NCBI RefSeq assembly: GCF_003002055.1
Contig: NZ_PVZF01000002.1
Coordinates: forward strand, 1-64,000
DNA length: 64,000 nt
Direction: 5' to 3'
Source of the DNA: Kineococcus rhizosphaerae
GTDB lineage: Bacteria; Actinomycetota; Actinomycetes; Actinomycetales; Kineococcaceae
Part shown: in pieces, positions 9,640 through 19,349 of the stretch
Position numbering within the stretch: the first letter of the stretch is position 1
How the letters are laid out: every line of letters begins with the position of its first letter
Translations under genes and position numbers: made by a program
The notes under the pieces: generated by a model
Database searches by the model: none
The model's input: the letters and a program-made list of their open reading frames with translations, nothing else
Told to the model about the DNA's origin: nothing

Positions 9640-11204
9640 GGGGTCCTCCGGAAGCTGCGGCGGGTGGGGCGGTCGGGGGTGCGCGGGTGGTCGCCGCGGA
9701 AGTGCGCCCCCAGGCTCTCCTCGCGCCGGGTCGCGGCCGCGACGAGCAGGTGGGCCGCGAGCACGAGGTTGGAGTCCTCCCGCGCGCCGCGGGGCACGCC
9801 GAGGTCGTCGGGCCGGATCTCGACCGGGTCCTCCTGCGGGGTCAGGAGCTTGGTCGCGACCGCCAGCCCGGCCTCGTCGCGCACGAGCCCGGCGTGCTCC
9901 CACAGCGTCGCCTGGACGTCGCGCCGGCCCACGTGCGCGGCGACGGGCAGGGCGGGTTCGGCGACGTCGACGACCTCGTCCTCGAACCCGGCGGCGGTAC
10001 CGCCGCGGGCGATGTCGGCGACGACGGCCCCGCCGATGACGAGCGCCTCCAGCAGGGAGTTCGAGGCGAGCCGGTTCGCGCCGTGCACCCCGGAGCAGGC
10101 GACCTCGCCGGCGGCCCACAACCCGGGCAGGGAGGTGCGGCCGGCGGCGTCGGTGCGGACGCCGCCCATCCAGTAGTGGGCGGCGGGGGTCACCGGGACG
10201 GGCGTGGTCTCGGGGTCGATCCCGGCGCGCGCGCACAGCTGCGCGATGCCGGGGAACCGCTGGGCGAACGTGCGGCCCAGGGCGCCCGACACCCCGGTCG
10301 CGTCGAGCAGGACGGGGGCGCCGCCGTGCTCGGCCATCGCCGTCCCGATGGCCCGCGCGACGACGTCGCGGGGGGCCAGTTCGGCGCGCGGGTCGACCGC
10401 GGGCATGAACCGGTGCCCGGCGGCGTCGAGCAGCACGGCCCCCTCCCCGCGGACGGCCTCGGAGACGAGGAACGGGTCGGCGACGGCGGCCACGGTCGGG
10501 TGGAACTGGAAGAACTCCAGGTCCGCGACGAGGGCCCCGGCGCGGAACGCGGCGGCCAGCCCGTCGGCCGTGGCGACCACCGGGTTCGTGGTGCGGCTGT
10601 ACAGCTGCCCGGCGCCGCCGGTGGCCAGGACGACGGCGTCGGCGCGGACCCGCAGCAGGTGCGGGTGCTCGACCCCCTCGAGGAACTCGGCGCCGACGAC
10701 CCGGCCGTGCTCGGTGAGGAGGCCGACGAGGAACGCGTCCTCGTGGACCGCCGCGTCGCTGCGCCGCACGGCCGCGGCCAGGGCCTGCGAGATCGCCGCC
10801 CCCGTGCGGTCCCCGCCCGCGTGCAGGATGCGCGAGGTGGTGTGCGCCGCCTCCAGGCCGAGGGCCCAGCCGCCGGAGCGGCCGCGGTCGAAGTCCACGC
10901 CGCGTTCGGCCAGCACCCGCACGGCGGCCGGACCGGCCGCGCACAGCGCCCGCACGGCCGCCGGGCTGGACAGGCCCGCCCCCGCGGCGAGGGTGTCGGC
11001 GACGTGGACGGGGACGTCGGCGGCGCCCGTCGCCGCCGCGATCCCGCCCTGGGCGTAGTGGGTGCTGCCGTCGCCGAGGGAGGTCTTGGTGGCCAGGACG
11101 ACCCGCCCGGTCCGGGCGGCCTCCAGGGCCGCCGTCATCCCGGCGACCCCGGCCCCGACGACGAGGACGTCGGTGCGCAGCTCCACCGGCTCCGGGGACC
11201 TCAC
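9636..11204 (-). CDS. nadB: L-aspartate oxidase
   Basis: A 522-residue FAD enzyme oxidising aspartate to iminoaspartate for NadA. The N-terminal dinucleotide fold VVGAGVAGM (about 15-23), the active-site block STHYAQGGIAAA, HTTSRILHAGGDRTG and the C-terminal GLWAAGEVACSGVHGANRLASNSLLE are the succinate dehydrogenase/fumarate reductase flavoprotein signatures as found in NadB. A helical C-terminal domain follows (EDSNLVLAAHLLVAAATRREES). The final 30 residues are Arg/Pro-rich and variable. GTG start overlaps the nadA stop by 4 bases. Confidence 0.95.
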   Translation of the reverse strand: MRSPEPVELRTDVLVVGAGVAGMTAALEAARTGRVVLATKTSLGDGSTHYAQGGIAAATGAADVPVHVADTLAAGAGLSSPAAVRALCAAGPAAVRVLAERGVDFDRGRSGGWALGLEAAHTTSRILHAGGDRTGAAISQALAAAVRRSDAAVHEDAFLVGLLTEHGRVVGAEFLEGVEHPHLLRVRADAVVLATGGAGQLYSRTTNPVVATADGLAAAFRAGALVADLEFFQFHPTVAAVADPFLVSEAVRGEGAVLLDAAGHRFMPAVDPRAELAPRDVVARAIGTAMAEHGGAPVLLDATGVSGALGRTFAQRFPGIAQLCARAGIDPETTPVPVTPAAHYWMGGVRTDAAGRTSLPGLWAAGEVACSGVHGANRLASNSLLEALVIGGAVVADIARGGTAAGFEDEVVDVAEPALPVAAHVGRRDVQATLWEHAGLVRDEAGLAVATKLLTPQEDPVEIRPDDLGVPRGAREDSNLVLAAHLLVAAATRREESLGAHFRGDHPRTPDRPTRRSFRRTP

Positions 11205-12493
11205 GCCCCGACCGCCAGCATCCGTTCCACCGCCGTGCGCGCGTGCCCGGCGACGACGGGGTCGACGCTGACCTGGTTCACGACGCGGCCCTCGACGAGG
11301 GACTCCAGCACCCACGCGAGGTAGGCGGGGTGGATCCGGTACATCGTGGAGCAGGGGCACACGACCGGGTCCAGGCACTCGATCGTCAGGTCCGGGCGGG
11401 TGTCGGCCAGGCGCCGGACCATGTTGATCTCGGTGCCGACCGCGAACGCCTCACCGGGCTGCGCCGCGTCGATCGCGAGCTGGATGTAGCGCGTCGAACC
11501 GGCCTCGTCGGCGGCGTCGACGACCTCCATCGGGCACTCGGGGTGCACGATGACGCGGACGTCGGGGTTCTTGGCCCGCGCCTGCGCGATCTGGTCGACG
11601 GTGAACCGCTGGTGCACCGAGCACCAGCCGCGCCACAGGACGACGCGGGCGTCGCGCAGGGACTCCTCGGAGTTCCCGCCGCGGGGTTTGCGGGGGTCCC
11701 ACAACGGCATGTCGGCCACGTCGACGCCCATGGCCTTGGCGGTGTTGCGGCCCAGGTGCTGGTCGGGGAAGAACAGGACGCGCTGCCCGCGCTCGAACGC
11801 CCACTCCAGGACCTCGCGCGCGTTGGAACTGGTGCAGACGATGCCGCCGTGCTCGCCGCAGAAACCCTTGAGGTTCGCGGCGGAGTTCATGTACGTCACG
11901 GGGATGACGGGGACCCTGCCGTCGGCGTCGGGTTCGGTGCCGTAGACCGCCTCGAGCTGTTCCCAGCAGGCCTGCACGGCGTCGATGTCGGCCATGTCGG
12001 CCATCGAGCAGCCCGCCGCGAGGTTGGGCAGGATGACGGGCTGGTCGTCGGTGGTGAGCAGGTCCGCCGTCTCGGCCATGAAGTGCACGCCGCAGAACAC
12101 GACGAACTCGGCCTCGGGGTGCTGCTGCGACTGCTGGGCGAGCTGGAAGGAGTCGCCCACGAAGTCGGCGTACTGGACGATCTCGTCGCGCTGGTAGGCG
12201 TGGCCGAGGATCGTGACGCGCGAGCCGAGGGTCTGCCGGGCCGTGCGGATGCGGCGGTCGAGCTCGTCGGCGGGCAGCAACCGGTACTGCGCGGGGATCT
12301 GCTGCTGCACCGGCGCGTCGGCCGGGACGGGGTCCTGCCGGGACGCGCCCGCGCCGTACGTGGGCGCCGGCAGGGGCTGCCCCGGGACGGCGTCGAACTG
12401 CCACGGCGCGGTCGGCAGGTCGGGGTCGCAGGTGCTGTCGGCTCCGCCCGGCGCGCGGGTGAGCAGGGCGATCTGCGTGGGGACGGACGCCAT
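11201..12493 (-). CDS. nadA: quinolinate synthase
   Basis: A 430-residue long-form NadA that condenses iminoaspartate with dihydroxyacetone phosphate. It needs a [4Fe-4S] cluster; the likely ligands are Cys134 (VVFCGVHFMAE), Cys220 (HGGIVCTSSN) and Cys381 (CPCSTMYRIHP). Other family motifs: GHAYQRDEIVQYADFVGDS and CPMEVVDAAD. About 70 extra N-terminal residues before the conserved core are typical of actinobacterial NadA. ATG start; AAAGG about 9 bases upstream is a weak ribosome-binding site. It follows nrtR after 46 bases holding the 18-bp element shared with the mannanase leader. Confidence 0.95.
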   Translation of the reverse strand: MASVPTQIALLTRAPGGADSTCDPDLPTAPWQFDAVPGQPLPAPTYGAGASRQDPVPADAPVQQQIPAQYRLLPADELDRRIRTARQTLGSRVTILGHAYQRDEIVQYADFVGDSFQLAQQSQQHPEAEFVVFCGVHFMAETADLLTTDDQPVILPNLAAGCSMADMADIDAVQACWEQLEAVYGTEPDADGRVPVIPVTYMNSAANLKGFCGEHGGIVCTSSNAREVLEWAFERGQRVLFFPDQHLGRNTAKAMGVDVADMPLWDPRKPRGGNSEESLRDARVVLWRGWCSVHQRFTVDQIAQARAKNPDVRVIVHPECPMEVVDAADEAGSTRYIQLAIDAAQPGEAFAVGTEINMVRRLADTRPDLTIECLDPVVCPCSTMYRIHPAYLAWVLESLVEGRVVNQVSVDPVVAGHARTAVERMLAVGA

Positions 12494-12514
12494 CGTGCAG
12501 CCTTTTCTCGAGGA

Positions 12515-12532
12515 GTTCCTGTGAACGTTCCC
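12515..12532. repeat. 18-bp shared element, copy 2 (nrtR-nadA gap)
   Basis: GTTCCTGTGAACGTTCCC matches 17 of 18 bases with 1429-1446. It lies 22-39 bases upstream of the nadA start, in the untranslated gap after nrtR. The core GAACGTTC is a perfect palindrome and could be an operator or an internal promoter element. Confidence 0.6.
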
Positions 12533-12539
12533 GGACCGC

Positions 12540-13232
12540 TCAGGCGAGCGGGCCGGCGGACTGCAGCGGGCCGGCGGATCCCTCGGGGACCACGGCTCGG
12601 TAGAGCTTGGGGGGACGGTGGCGACCGCCGGTCTGGCGCTCGCCGGTCTCCACGACCGTCCCCGACCCCTCCACCTGCCGGCGGAAGTTCGCCGGGTCGA
12701 GGTGGCGCTGGAGGACGGCCTCGTGCACCTCGCGCAGCTGCGCGAGGGAGAACTGCTCGTCGAGGAAGTGCTGGGCCACGTGCGCGTGCTGGACCTTGGT
12801 CCGCAACCGCCACAGCGCGTACTGCACGATCTCGTCGTGGTCGAAGGCCAGGCCCGTGCAGTCGTCGGCCGAGGTCCAGCGGACGTTCTCGCCCTCGACG
12901 GCGGCGGCCGCCTCGTGGTTGCGCACGAGGGCGGAGTAGACGACGGACACGACGCGCTGGCCGGGGGAGCGGTCCGGGCGGCCGAAGGTGTAGAGCTGCT
13001 CCAGGTAGCTCGGCCGCAACCCGGTCGTCTCGGCCAGGGTCCGGCGCCCGGCCCCGCTCAGGCTCTCGGACGTGCGCACCCACCCCCCGGGCAGGGCCCA
13101 CTGGTCCGCGAACGGGTCCCGCGTGCGGCGCACCAGCGGGAGGTGCACGCGCACGTCGCCGCCCCGGTCGGGCAGCAGGGCGAAGATCACCGTCGAGACC
13201 GCGACGAGGATCGCCTGCTGGGAGGTGCTCAT
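12540..13232 (-). CDS. nrtR: NrtR-type Nudix transcriptional regulator of NAD synthesis
   Basis: A 230-residue protein with an N-terminal Nudix fold (DPFADQWALPGGWVRTSESL) and a C-terminal winged helix (FSLAQLREVHEAVLQRHLDPANFRRQVEGSG). The Nudix box is degenerate (GRRTLAETTGL in place of the REUXEE core), which fits NrtR regulators that sense ADP-ribose or NAD metabolites instead of hydrolysing them. It heads the same-strand nadABC-desulfurase cluster, the expected NrtR regulon. A 17-bp imperfect palindrome 28 bases upstream of its ATG is the candidate operator, implying autoregulation. No strong ribosome-binding site. It could also be annotated as a plain NUDIX hydrolase. Confidence 0.87.
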   Translation of the reverse strand: MSTSQQAILVAVSTVIFALLPDRGGDVRVHLPLVRRTRDPFADQWALPGGWVRTSESLSGAGRRTLAETTGLRPSYLEQLYTFGRPDRSPGQRVVSVVYSALVRNHEAAAAVEGENVRWTSADDCTGLAFDHDEIVQYALWRLRTKVQHAHVAQHFLDEQFSLAQLREVHEAVLQRHLDPANFRRQVEGSGTVVETGERQTGGRHRPPKLYRAVVPEGSAGPLQSAGPLA

Positions 13233-13260
13233 GGGAACTCAGGACCCCGGATCAGTAAGG

Positions 13261-13277
13261 GTGGTTCTGACAACAAC
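13261..13277. promoter_or_regulatory. candidate NrtR operator
   Basis: GTGGTTCTGACAACAAC reads GTTGTTGTCAGAACCAC on the nrtR strand, a 17-bp palindrome of form GTnGTTnTnAnAACnAC. Its place between the nrtR start and any upstream promoter suits autorepression of nrtR and the nad genes. Confidence 0.5.
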
Positions 13278-13385
13278 TGCGTCGGCGAGCACTGTAGGGC
13301 CGAGGGGGCCGGGGCCACAAGCCGTGCCCGGGGTCGGGGGCGGGACGCCCGCCGGGGCTTCGTCGCGATCGGCGCCGAATTCGGG

Positions 13386-13415
13386 GTGACAAGTCCGCGG
13401 GAGCAGTCGTACCGT
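13386..13415 (+). promoter_or_regulatory. promoter of the 13.4-kb leader transcript
   Basis: GTGACA (13386-13391), an 18-base spacer and TACCGT (13410-13415) form a sigma-70-like promoter. The same arrangement, GTGACA-18-TATGGT, occurs at 19086-19115 before the riboswitch. Predicted start is near 13422, just before a strong Shine-Dalgarno and the 12-codon ORF. Confidence 0.45.
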
Positions 13416-13447
13416 CGTAGGACACGGGAAGGAGGTGGTCCGAACAC

Positions 13448-13486
13448 ATGGTTTCTCATCGGACGCGTGAGGTGGCTGCCAGCTAG
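13448..13486 (+). CDS. possible 12-codon leader peptide
   Basis: A mini-ORF MVSHRTREVAAS ending in TAG. It is preceded by AAGGAGGTG (13429-13437), an almost ideal anti-16S match, and by a promoter-like pair. The stretch ACACATGGTTTCTCATCGG is markedly AT-richer than anything nearby, as expected if its sequence is constrained. After the TAG the frame stays open for 70 codons to a TGA at 13697-13699. It may be a regulatory leader for a downstream RNA or for the MFS gene; the MFS gene also has its own -10 and leaderless start. Not identified; confidence is limited by size. Confidence 0.35.
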   Translation: MVSHRTREVAAS

Positions 13487-13704
13487 CAGCTGCGCGACAG
13501 GACGCGGACCGCTCTGGTCGCCCCGCGCAGCGCGGCGAATCCACGGCAGTCACCGGGTCCCCGGGCGCCGGTCTGTCCAACCGGACCGCCCCGACGGTGT
13601 GATCACCGGCGGGCGGGAAGCGCCCGGGGACTTTCCTGCGTCCCCGCCGGCCCGCGCGAGCGCCGCCGGGAAGTTCCCCCGGACAACCACCTAGGCTGAG
13701 GCCC

Positions 13705-14991
13705 GTGACCTCACCACCCGTCGCCCGGCGACGGTTCCTCGCCGACACCACGCCGCTGCGCGAGGTCCCCGCCTTCCGGTGGTTGTGGATCGGGCAGTCG
13801 CTGGCCGGCATCGGGACCCAGCTGACCGTCGTCACCGTCGGGTTGCAGGTCTACGCCCTGACCTCCTCGACGTTCTCCGTCGGGCTCGTCGGGGTCTTCG
13901 CCCTCGTGCCCCTCGTCGGGCTCGGGCTGTACGGCGGGGCGCTCGTCGACGCCCACGACCGCCGCCGCGTCGCCCTGCTCGCCTCCGTCGTCCTGTGGGT
14001 CGTCTCCCTGGCCATCGCCGCGCAGGCCTGGTGGCACGTGGACTCCGTCGAACTGCTCTACGGCCTCGTCGCCGTGCAGAGCGCCGCCTTCGCGGTGAAC
14101 AACCCCGCGCGCTCGGCGATCGTCCCCGGGATCGTCCCCCGCCACCTGCTCCCGGCCGCGAACGCGCTGTCCGGCACGACCAACGCCATCGCCCTGACCG
14201 TGGGGCCGCTGCTGGCCGGCTTCCTCGTCGGCGGGTGGGGCTTCCAGGCCGCCTACACCGTGGACGCCGTGACCTTCGTCGCCGCGCTGGCCGGGGTGTG
14301 GCGCCTGCCCCCCATGCCGCCCGACGCTGGGGAGGAGGTGCGCCGGCCCGGGCTGCGCTCGGTCCTGGAGGGCATCGCGTTCCTCGGGACGCGGCCCAAC
14401 ATCCGGGCGACGTTCCTGGCCGACCTGTGCGCCATGGTGTTCGCGATGCCGCGCGTGCTGTACCCGGCCCTGGGGGCCGTCGAGCTCGGCGGCGGGGCCC
14501 GGACGGTCGGGATCCTCGGCGCGGGGTTCGCCGTGGGCTCGGTGCTGGCGGGGCTGTTCTCCGGCCGGCTGGGGGCGGTGCGCCGCCAGGGGGCCTTCGT
14601 CGTCGGGTGCGTGGTCGCCTACGGCGCGGCCGTCGCCGCCTTCGGGCTCGTGCTCGTGCTCGCCCCCGACGGGGCGGACTGGAAGCTGTGGCTGTGCGTC
14701 GTCCTGCTCGCCGCCTCGGGCGCGGCGGACGCCGTGAGCTCGATCTTCCGCGGGACCATCCTGCAGGTGGCCACCCCCGACGCCCTGCGCGGCCGGTTGC
14801 AGGGCGTGTTCATCGTCGTGGTGGCCGGCGGGCCCCGGCTCGGCGACCTCGTCCTCGGTTCGGCCGCCGACGGGATCGGCGAGGGCTTCGCGGCGCTGGC
14901 GGGGGGCGCGGCGTGCGTCGCCGGGGTCCTGGTGCTGGCGAACCGGCAGCGGGGGTTCCTGCGCTACGACGCGCGCCACCCCACGGCCTGA
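13705..14991 (+). CDS. MFS transporter (EntS/DHA3-like exporter)
   Basis: A 428-residue major facilitator. The opening LREVPAFRWLWIGQSLAGIGTQLTVV, the loop DAHDRRRVALLAS after helix 2, and the segment FAVNNPARSAIVPGIVPRHLLPAANAL are typical of the DHA3 group that includes enterobactin exporter EntS. Substrate is unknown; a siderophore or drug is possible, and ideR lies 3 kb away. The GTG at 13705 stands 7 bases after TAGGCT (13692-13697) without a ribosome-binding site, so it looks leaderless. A 7-bp hairpin follows the stop. Confidence 0.88.
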   Translation: MTSPPVARRRFLADTTPLREVPAFRWLWIGQSLAGIGTQLTVVTVGLQVYALTSSTFSVGLVGVFALVPLVGLGLYGGALVDAHDRRRVALLASVVLWVVSLAIAAQAWWHVDSVELLYGLVAVQSAAFAVNNPARSAIVPGIVPRHLLPAANALSGTTNAIALTVGPLLAGFLVGGWGFQAAYTVDAVTFVAALAGVWRLPPMPPDAGEEVRRPGLRSVLEGIAFLGTRPNIRATFLADLCAMVFAMPRVLYPALGAVELGGGARTVGILGAGFAVGSVLAGLFSGRLGAVRRQGAFVVGCVVAYGAAVAAFGLVLVLAPDGADWKLWLCVVLLAASGAADAVSSIFRGTILQVATPDALRGRLQGVFIVVVAGGPRLGDLVLGSAADGIGEGFAALAGGAACVAGVLVLANRQRGFLRYDARHPTA

Positions 14992-19154: not shown

Positions 19155-19340
19155 CGGACGCCGAGCCCTGCCACCGCGACGAGGTCCCCGAGACAGCTCA
19201 TGGCAGGGGTGGGGGAACCACGTTTCCCGGGCGAGACCCGACCAGCCGGTCGAGTCGAGTCCTTGGGGTGAAGCCGGTGCGAACCGGCCGGGCGATACTC
19301 CCGCCCGAACCCGACAGCTCACCTCGCAGGCGTCGGAGAG
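19155..19340 (+). ncRNA. c-di-AMP riboswitch (ydaO-yuaA class)
   Basis: The leader carries the conserved blocks of the actinobacterial ydaO-yuaA riboswitch in order: GCCGAGCCCTG (19160-19170), CAGGGGTGGGGGAACCA (19204-19220), TTGGGGTGAAG (19263-19273) and GACAGCTCACCTCGCAGG (19313-19330). The gene behind it, an NlpC/P60 cell-wall hydrolase, is the usual partner of this class in actinobacteria. Binding of cyclic di-AMP normally turns expression off. The ribosome-binding site GAGAGG follows directly, so either termination or occlusion could be the output. Ends are approximate. Confidence 0.88.
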
Positions 19341-19349
19341 GCCACCACC

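Follow-up and report, generated by a model that had tools for sequence, protein, structure and literature searches.

What might a reading frame of just 12 codons be doing behind an unusually long ribosome-binding site, well short of the next gene? The question is raised by a locus of Kineococcus rhizosphaerae that lies within the 64,000-nucleotide stretch of DNA analysed here (the window; positions refer to it, and features lie on its + strand unless otherwise noted). A sequence-only reading had offered three answers: that the frame encodes a leader peptide, that it is part of a dual-function RNA, or that it is the beginning of a read-through product. Of these the dual-function RNA comes closest, as the locus belongs to a known family of small RNAs and its frame is conserved; the leader and the read-through product did not hold up.

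The locus and its ribosome-binding site

The elements that had been picked out by eye are all in the sequence: AAGGAGGTGGTCC (13429-13441), an extended Shine-Dalgarno (SD) sequence recognized by inspection and by a genome-wide count; an ATG at 13448-13450; the 12-codon micro-ORF MVSHRTREVAAS, which occupies 13448-13486 together with its TAG at 13484-13486; and then CAGCTG. The AT-rich core is also real, with a GC fraction of 0.45 at 13440-13459, as against 0.55 to 0.95 in the remaining 20-base segments of 13380-13719. Tests of conservation, given below, confirm by comparison with relatives that the micro-ORF goes beyond chance.

The ribosome-binding site had been called ideal, and this needs some qualification: its complement to the 16S tail is unusually long, but the end of GGAGG lies 12 nt upstream of the ATG, which is not the textbook arrangement. 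SD-to-start spacings of 9 to 13 nt are long by the standards of E. coli. Over 13 nt, one of them in a G-U pair, AAGGAGGTGGTCC is complementary to what we take to be the usual 3' tail of 16S rRNA. The 13-mer AAGGAGGTGRTCC is found twice in the 5.6-Mb assembly, once at the micro-ORF and once on one strand of an apparent coding stretch. The idea that the second genomic AAGGAGGTGATCC is 16S antisense was rejected, since that stretch is not 16S.

Upstream lies a promoter-like pair (13386-13415), GTGACA at 13386-13391 and TACCGT at 13410-13415, separated by 18 nt. The pair is present as had been claimed, but it matches the consensus weakly and a strict sigma-70 scan calls no promoter at the locus. 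A survey of 161 relatives shows that, at the same distance, TTG is enriched around -35 and TA..T around -10.

A member of a known family of small RNAs

The locus matches the Rfam family RF02471 (Ms_IGR-5) in sequence and structure over the full length of the model, at 13422-13639, with a covariance-model score of 92.7 bits (E = 2e-21) against a gathering threshold of 45 bits. A scan of the whole window finds no other match to that family. The model begins at 13422, the very position that had been guessed as the start of a transcript, and runs to after a long terminator-like hairpin (13555-13636, GGGTCCCCGGGCGC ... GCGCCCGGGGACTT), which is predicted by RNAfold and has a weak run of T. A scan for U-run terminators does not call this hairpin at the locus. 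The features of a stand-alone transcript, a promoter-like pair and a terminator-like hairpin, are therefore both present but neither passes a strict scan, and for this reason we infer them from the relatives and from the structure.

Ms_IGR-5 is a published actinobacterial sRNA, and the published RNA-seq and northern data pertain to relatives of the strain considered here. Expression of the family is reported in S. lividans (SLIV_16488, positive by RNA-seq), S. avermitilis, and M. smegmatis (ncMSMEG15794c) (PMC8079986, PMC8780764, PMC4974804, PMC10454040). Homologues of MS_IGR-5 are also said to draw significant ribosomal reads in ribosome profiling of M. abscessus and M. smegmatis, with the authors' caution that such reads occur as well on untranslated non-coding RNAs (PMC4974804). 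Among open-licence full texts, we found no paper that describes an ORF or a function for Ms_IGR-5 and no published function for the sRNA in mycobacteria or Streptomyces. Neither an ORF nor a function for the RNA appears in the passages of PMC4109619, PMC3828370, PMC13009471, PMC11133741, and PMC4633059, or in those of PMC8079986, PMC8780764, PMC4974804, and PMC10454040, and the main text of the original northern-blot paper (PMC3828370) does not contain the term "IGR-5".

A link to the Caulobacter sRNA CC2171 (RF01867), suggested by a weak overlap, was discarded: the score is 12.5 bits, where the gathering threshold is 75, and it falls below those of several chance-level sites in the same genome.

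Relation to the downstream gene

Downstream of the RNA, and outside it, lies a gene encoding an MFS transporter (MFS_3; 13705-14991; Pfam PF05977, E = 2.2e-37). It is on the same strand as the micro-ORF, with 218 nt from the stop codon to its start, an arrangement that fits a leader or attenuator. The fit ends there. The RNA's strong end hairpin stands in this sizeable gap and leaves about 70 nt to the start of the MFS gene. Nor is the gene a constant companion. Gene context was considered at 141 loci, including the window's own, by means of a home-made ORF caller, and a downstream gene was within range in 136. It is convergent in 69 of these and co-directional in 67, and the genes belong to many families (35 clusters plus 42 unclustered genes), so that no conserved co-directional gene follows the RNA in the 136 loci. 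It is scarcely credible, then, that the RNA serves the MFS gene as leader or attenuator.

The frame does remain open beyond the TAG for 70 codons, as had been observed, to a TGA just before the GTG of the MFS gene at 13705, but it does so because the GC content is high. In 12 loci from the window's family (its own included), the frame after the stop ends at no shared point, its length ranging from 6 codons to 95 or more, hence no conserved extension was found in this set. A read-through product would moreover have to cross the terminator hairpin, and the proposal was dropped.

Two other features of the neighborhood may be mentioned. Within 11201-13300 of the window lie nadA (PF02445) and a gene encoding an NrtR-type Nudix regulator (PF21906, PF00293), both on the - strand. 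Between genes, ahead of the one for the regulator, TTCTGACAACAACT looks like a possible NrtR operator. Farther downstream, at 19185-19347 (+), there is a c-di-AMP riboswitch (RF00379, 59.4 bits, cut-off 38).

Conservation of start, frame, and stop

Within the micro-ORF lies a second SD-like sequence, GAGGTG (13469-13474), 9 nt before the stop. To gather relatives, a pattern was used that required the SD (GGAGGTGRTY) and, downstream, [GA]AGGTGRC, and that imposed nothing on start, frame, or stop. It led to 162 distinct loci, after two planctomycete loci (L126 and L134) had been dropped; three more that the pattern missed (L045, L267, and L272) can also be read by eye as containing the ORF, L272 from an ATC. 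The raw tallies of the pattern contain chance hits and cannot serve as measures of prevalence. The search comes close to fixing GAGGTG and thus itself accounts for part of that motif's invariance.

In 160 of the 162 loci, which are related and therefore do not constitute independent trials, a stop codon occurs exactly five codons after GAG in the frame set by GAG. The identity of the stop is free to change (TAG in 138 of all 162 loci, TGA in 15, TAA in 9). In one locus, L242, a CAG stands in place of the TAG and is directly followed by a TAG codon, so that the stop comes one codon later. At the other end of the ORF, ATG, GTG, or TTG is found 9 to 13 nt after GGAGG in 149 of the 162. By eye, the remaining 13 have CTG (7), ATT or ATC (4), or ACG (1), or, in the case of L276, an ORF in another frame; the 12 with unusual starts all lie outside the class Actinomycetes, where kinship or title is given. 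ATT or ATC appears to be the start codon in several deep-branching members and CTG in others, the unusual starts having been kept in place (noted in L261, L262, L263, L268, L325, and L330). Ten deep-branching loci, also by eye, have the ORF in another frame relative to GAGGTG.

The distance from the start to GAG is only ever 21, 24, 27, or 18 nt (127, 11, 10, and 1 loci, respectively), while the adjacent distance from SD to start may be 9, 10, 11, 12, or 13 nt. Insertions and deletions thus come in threes inside the ORF and not beside it. Furthermore, codons 2 to 5 contain no in-frame stop in any of 130 distinct segments, whereas 28.6 segments with one were expected (500 shuffles, minimum 15). 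When the micro-ORF was sought in close relatives, as had been suggested, it turned up in every one of the 11 further members retrieved from the genus and family to which the window belongs. By these comparisons, the start codon, the frame, and the stop are shown to be under selection.

The peptide drifts

The same cannot be said of the amino acids. In a set of 113 distinct 12-codon ORFs, variation reaches every position of codons 2 to 4; codon 5 has the form NGG, encoding R, W, or G, and codon 6 (ACN) is alone in looking synonymous. Single-base codon changes in 66 close pairs were synonymous in 38 cases and nonsynonymous in 84, a synonymous share of 0.31 compared with 0.24 expected. Leaving out codon 6, the numbers are 29 and 83 (29/112). 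The comparison therefore finds no conserved functional peptide: substitutions outside codon 6 are near-neutral, and the residues that recur, T, E, and V, are encoded by nucleotides that have a second use in the helices P1 and P2 (described below) and in GAGGTG. The sequence of the peptide is, in short, hardly under selection. If the ORF is kept while the peptide drifts, then what is conserved is that a ribosome starts, keeps to its frame, and comes to a stop at one set position. That start, frame, and stop, and not the amino acids, are retained across much of the phylum and apparently beyond suggests that the RNA works through a ribosome that runs onto it.

The end of the ORF is one strand of a helix

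Two helices involve the ORF. The first, P1, is a hairpin (13438-13464) in which GTCCG (13438-13442) would pair with CGGAC (13460-13464), leaving the start codon in the loop; it appears in the Rfam structure and in the predictions of RNAfold and RNAalifold. P1 is so nearly invariant (98.4% of cells paired) that it is weakly tested: column-wise covariation gives weak signals, and when the loop of P1 is compared with shuffles the effect is modest (mean z -0.44, with 133 of 145 segments testable). P1 should thus be taken as a weakly supported hairpin.

The second helix, P2, joins GGTGGCTGCC (13471-13480), inside the last codons of the ORF, to GGCAGTCACC (13545-13554), directly before the terminator hairpin. 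It was seen by covariation in an alignment of 46 loci (A1, the window's locus included) and was recovered unaided by RNAalifold. In A1, P2 and the four pairs of P1 have 96.6% of their cells paired, while versions slid along the alignment have 27 to 48%. The rows of A1 were chosen partly for their likeness to a consensus of the 3' strand, a choice that favors the finding of P2. Cells in which both partners have changed number 20 (19 of them in P2), as against 4.4 in shuffles, and the covariation score of P1 and P2 together was reached in none of 500 shuffles. Finally, P2 strands from the same locus pair at 8.61 of 10 positions, compared with 8.20 when strands are swapped, the maximum in 1000 swaps being 8.375 (80 of 91 distinct strand pairs). 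Comparison among relatives thus shows a second role for the last four codons: they supply one side of the long-range helix P2, which closes immediately ahead of the terminator. The Rfam entry for RF02471 differs in this respect, having no ORF and no P2 and with part of the 5' strand of P2 paired elsewhere.

Before the 3' strand of P2, A1 contains a conserved unpaired stretch, GAATCC (13537-13542). A loop resembling GTCCAAC within the terminator hairpin, at about 13570-13590, recurs in several relatives and is in upper case in the Rfam consensus; it could pair with GGAC of P1.

A test on loci held out

The covariance model built from A1 (R1) gives 110.7 bits at 13420-13556 of the window, a locus that went into the model. 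At E <= 0.001, R1 matches 110 of 296 genomes across the phylum, once in 109 of them and twice in one. From 54 of the 110, none of which had been fetched before, came 56 held-out loci. These were examined with a script that made no use of the GAGGTG pattern and required only that a start lie 6 to 14 nt downstream of the SD, with a stop following 9 to 15 codons. It found an ORF beginning with ATG, GTG, or TTG in 49 of the 56, while shuffling of the ORF region led to a mean of 3.9 and a maximum of 13 (200 rounds). When CTG, ATT, ATC, ATA, and ACG were admitted as starts, all 56 had an ORF (shuffles: mean 8.4, maximum 20). The script based on GAGGTG could parse 50 of the 56, and in 44 of these the stop came five codons on; some of the exceptions form a subgroup whose ORF is in a different frame with respect to GAGGTG.

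At the same limit of E-value, RF02471 matches 70 of 396 genomes, and 35 of 396 over its own cut-off, the two samples of genomes being overlapping and not identical. Adding the P2 helix makes for a more sensitive model with which to find the RNA. The RNA seems to have been lost from four families of the window's order (f19, f6, f7, and f10), where the pattern is absent or chance-like only, and R1 finds nothing in the listed members of f6 and f19.

Likely relatives outside Actinomycetota

R1 was also scored on 77 named loci that carry the scan pattern and lie outside the actinobacterial set. Among the matches listed, the highest scores are those of L089 (an unclassified bacterium, 45.6 bits), L163 (Sumerlaeota, 42.1), L158 (Zixibacteriota, 29.9), L134 (Planctomycetota, 26.2), L083 (Pyrinomonadaceae, 25.5), L126 (Planctomycetota, 19.4), and L177 (Acidobacteria, 17.6), with the best of the others at 13.6. 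By eye, the ORF ends five codons after GAG in L083, L089, L158, L163, and L177, as it does in Actinomycetota, and lies in another frame in L126 and L134. The Rfam model RF02471 scores L158 at 42.5 bits and L083 at 28.2, both below its cut-off. It is likely, judging from these scores, that relatives of the RNA exist outside Actinomycetota. Their spread should be regarded as a lead, since the loci are metagenome-assembled contigs, one to two per phylum among the matches listed.

Two further look-alikes from outside the phylum, L140 and L178, picked out by eye, were set aside, as R1 does not back them (L140 absent, L178 with 10.1 bits). The two planctomycete loci, L126 (7573-7666, - strand) and L134 (4139-4232, + strand), share AAGGAGGTGGTCTAGTGAGTAGTGGTAACCAGAGGTGGCTGC, a short frame from a GTG, and a GCAGCCAC strand downstream; neither has an Rfam match at cut-off.

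A proposed ribosome-driven switch and its alternatives

What might the RNA gain by having a ribosome translate 12 codons of little consequence? A ribosome reading to the stop must open P2, and GAGGTG could hold it there; we therefore propose a switch driven by the ribosome. The long SD would capture a 30S subunit, and the resulting ribosome would read about 12 codons and halt at the stop codon. With the stop in the A site, the internal GAGGTG would be about as far from the P site as an SD normally is, and so might keep the terminating ribosome in place against competition from the 3' strand of P2. The ribosome, by opening P2, would free the conserved 3' strand (GAATCC ... GTCACC). The RNA might thus alternate between a closed form and one occupied by a ribosome, and might act or decay according to the efficiency with which ribosomes initiate and terminate. 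Our judgment inclines, by no great measure, toward a free-standing sRNA whose ancient micro-ORF loads a ribosome to a fixed spot and thereby opens P2 as a switch. The parking of the ribosome, the switch, and any effect downstream of it are inferred.

The strongest competitor takes the RNA to be bifunctional, encoding a peptide of 12 to 14 residues with an end like T-x-E-V-[A/T]-x-x that either has a job of its own or arrests the ribosome. It would account for the conserved translated frame and for the recurrence of T and EV toward the C-terminal side, but codons 2 to 4 are free at all three positions, codon 5 accepts residues as different as R, W, and G, the substitutions are close to neutral, and conservation is seen at residues whose nucleotides P1, P2, and GAGGTG require. 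A functional peptide is for these reasons unlikely. Alternatively, the RNA might be a decoy, its near-complete complement to the 16S tail sequestering 30S subunits and its short ORF merely permitting turnover. The conservation of the strong SD speaks for such a role, as does the rarity of the 13-mer, which has a single further occurrence in the assembly, but a decoy would leave unexplained the strict frame, the position of the stop, and the covariation of P2, and we find it rather unlikely.

Or perhaps there is nothing to explain, the sRNA being purely non-coding, as it is described by Rfam and in the papers found, and the ORF fortuitous in GC-rich DNA that is poor in stops. Such an accident is very hard to reconcile with stop codons that swap among TAG, TGA, and TAA in place, with indels in threes, and with the ORFs of the held-out loci (49 of 56, where shuffles give 3.9), and its probability must be slight.

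The ribosome-driven switch might also reach beyond the phylum. On a wider and decidedly more tentative reading, RF02471 would be one arm of an ancient, multi-phylum RNA whose working part is a micro-ORF that is translated but unconstrained in sequence, the switch being driven by a ribosome parked at the stop. The anti-SD of the ribosome and the RNA's own 3' strand would then compete for the same GAGGUG. This extension, which we consider possible but doubtful, draws on single contigs from Acidobacteriota, Planctomycetota, Zixibacteriota, and Sumerlaeota, beside Actinomycetota.

Comparison with known systems and significance

In some respects the RNA resembles systems already described. By the standard of dual-function RNAs, a translated ORF within a regulatory RNA, the conservation found here indicates probable translation. 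The sRNAs SgrS/SgrT and SR1/SR1P, which PMC11133741 names, are stable sRNAs that are also translated, as this one appears to be, but their peptides are functional, while that of the micro-ORF is close to unconstrained in sequence. Attenuator leader peptides and uORFs share with it a short ORF, a strong SD, and translation that would rearrange a helix next to a terminator; unlike them, the RNA is followed by no conserved gene that it could regulate in cis. The extended SD sites of Staphylococcus aureus, as presented in PMC13009471, likewise have SD-aSD pairing beyond the core and a longer spacing to the start, but they are a general feature of mRNA, whereas here the feature belongs to one small RNA.

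A family treated as non-coding by Rfam and by annotation pipelines thus carries a 12-codon ORF whose start, frame, and stop are conserved across a phylum. The combination of conserved translation and an unconserved peptide leads to a clear and testable hypothesis for the sRNA. If the multi-phylum reading is true, the RNA would report the capacity of the ribosome pool for initiation and termination.
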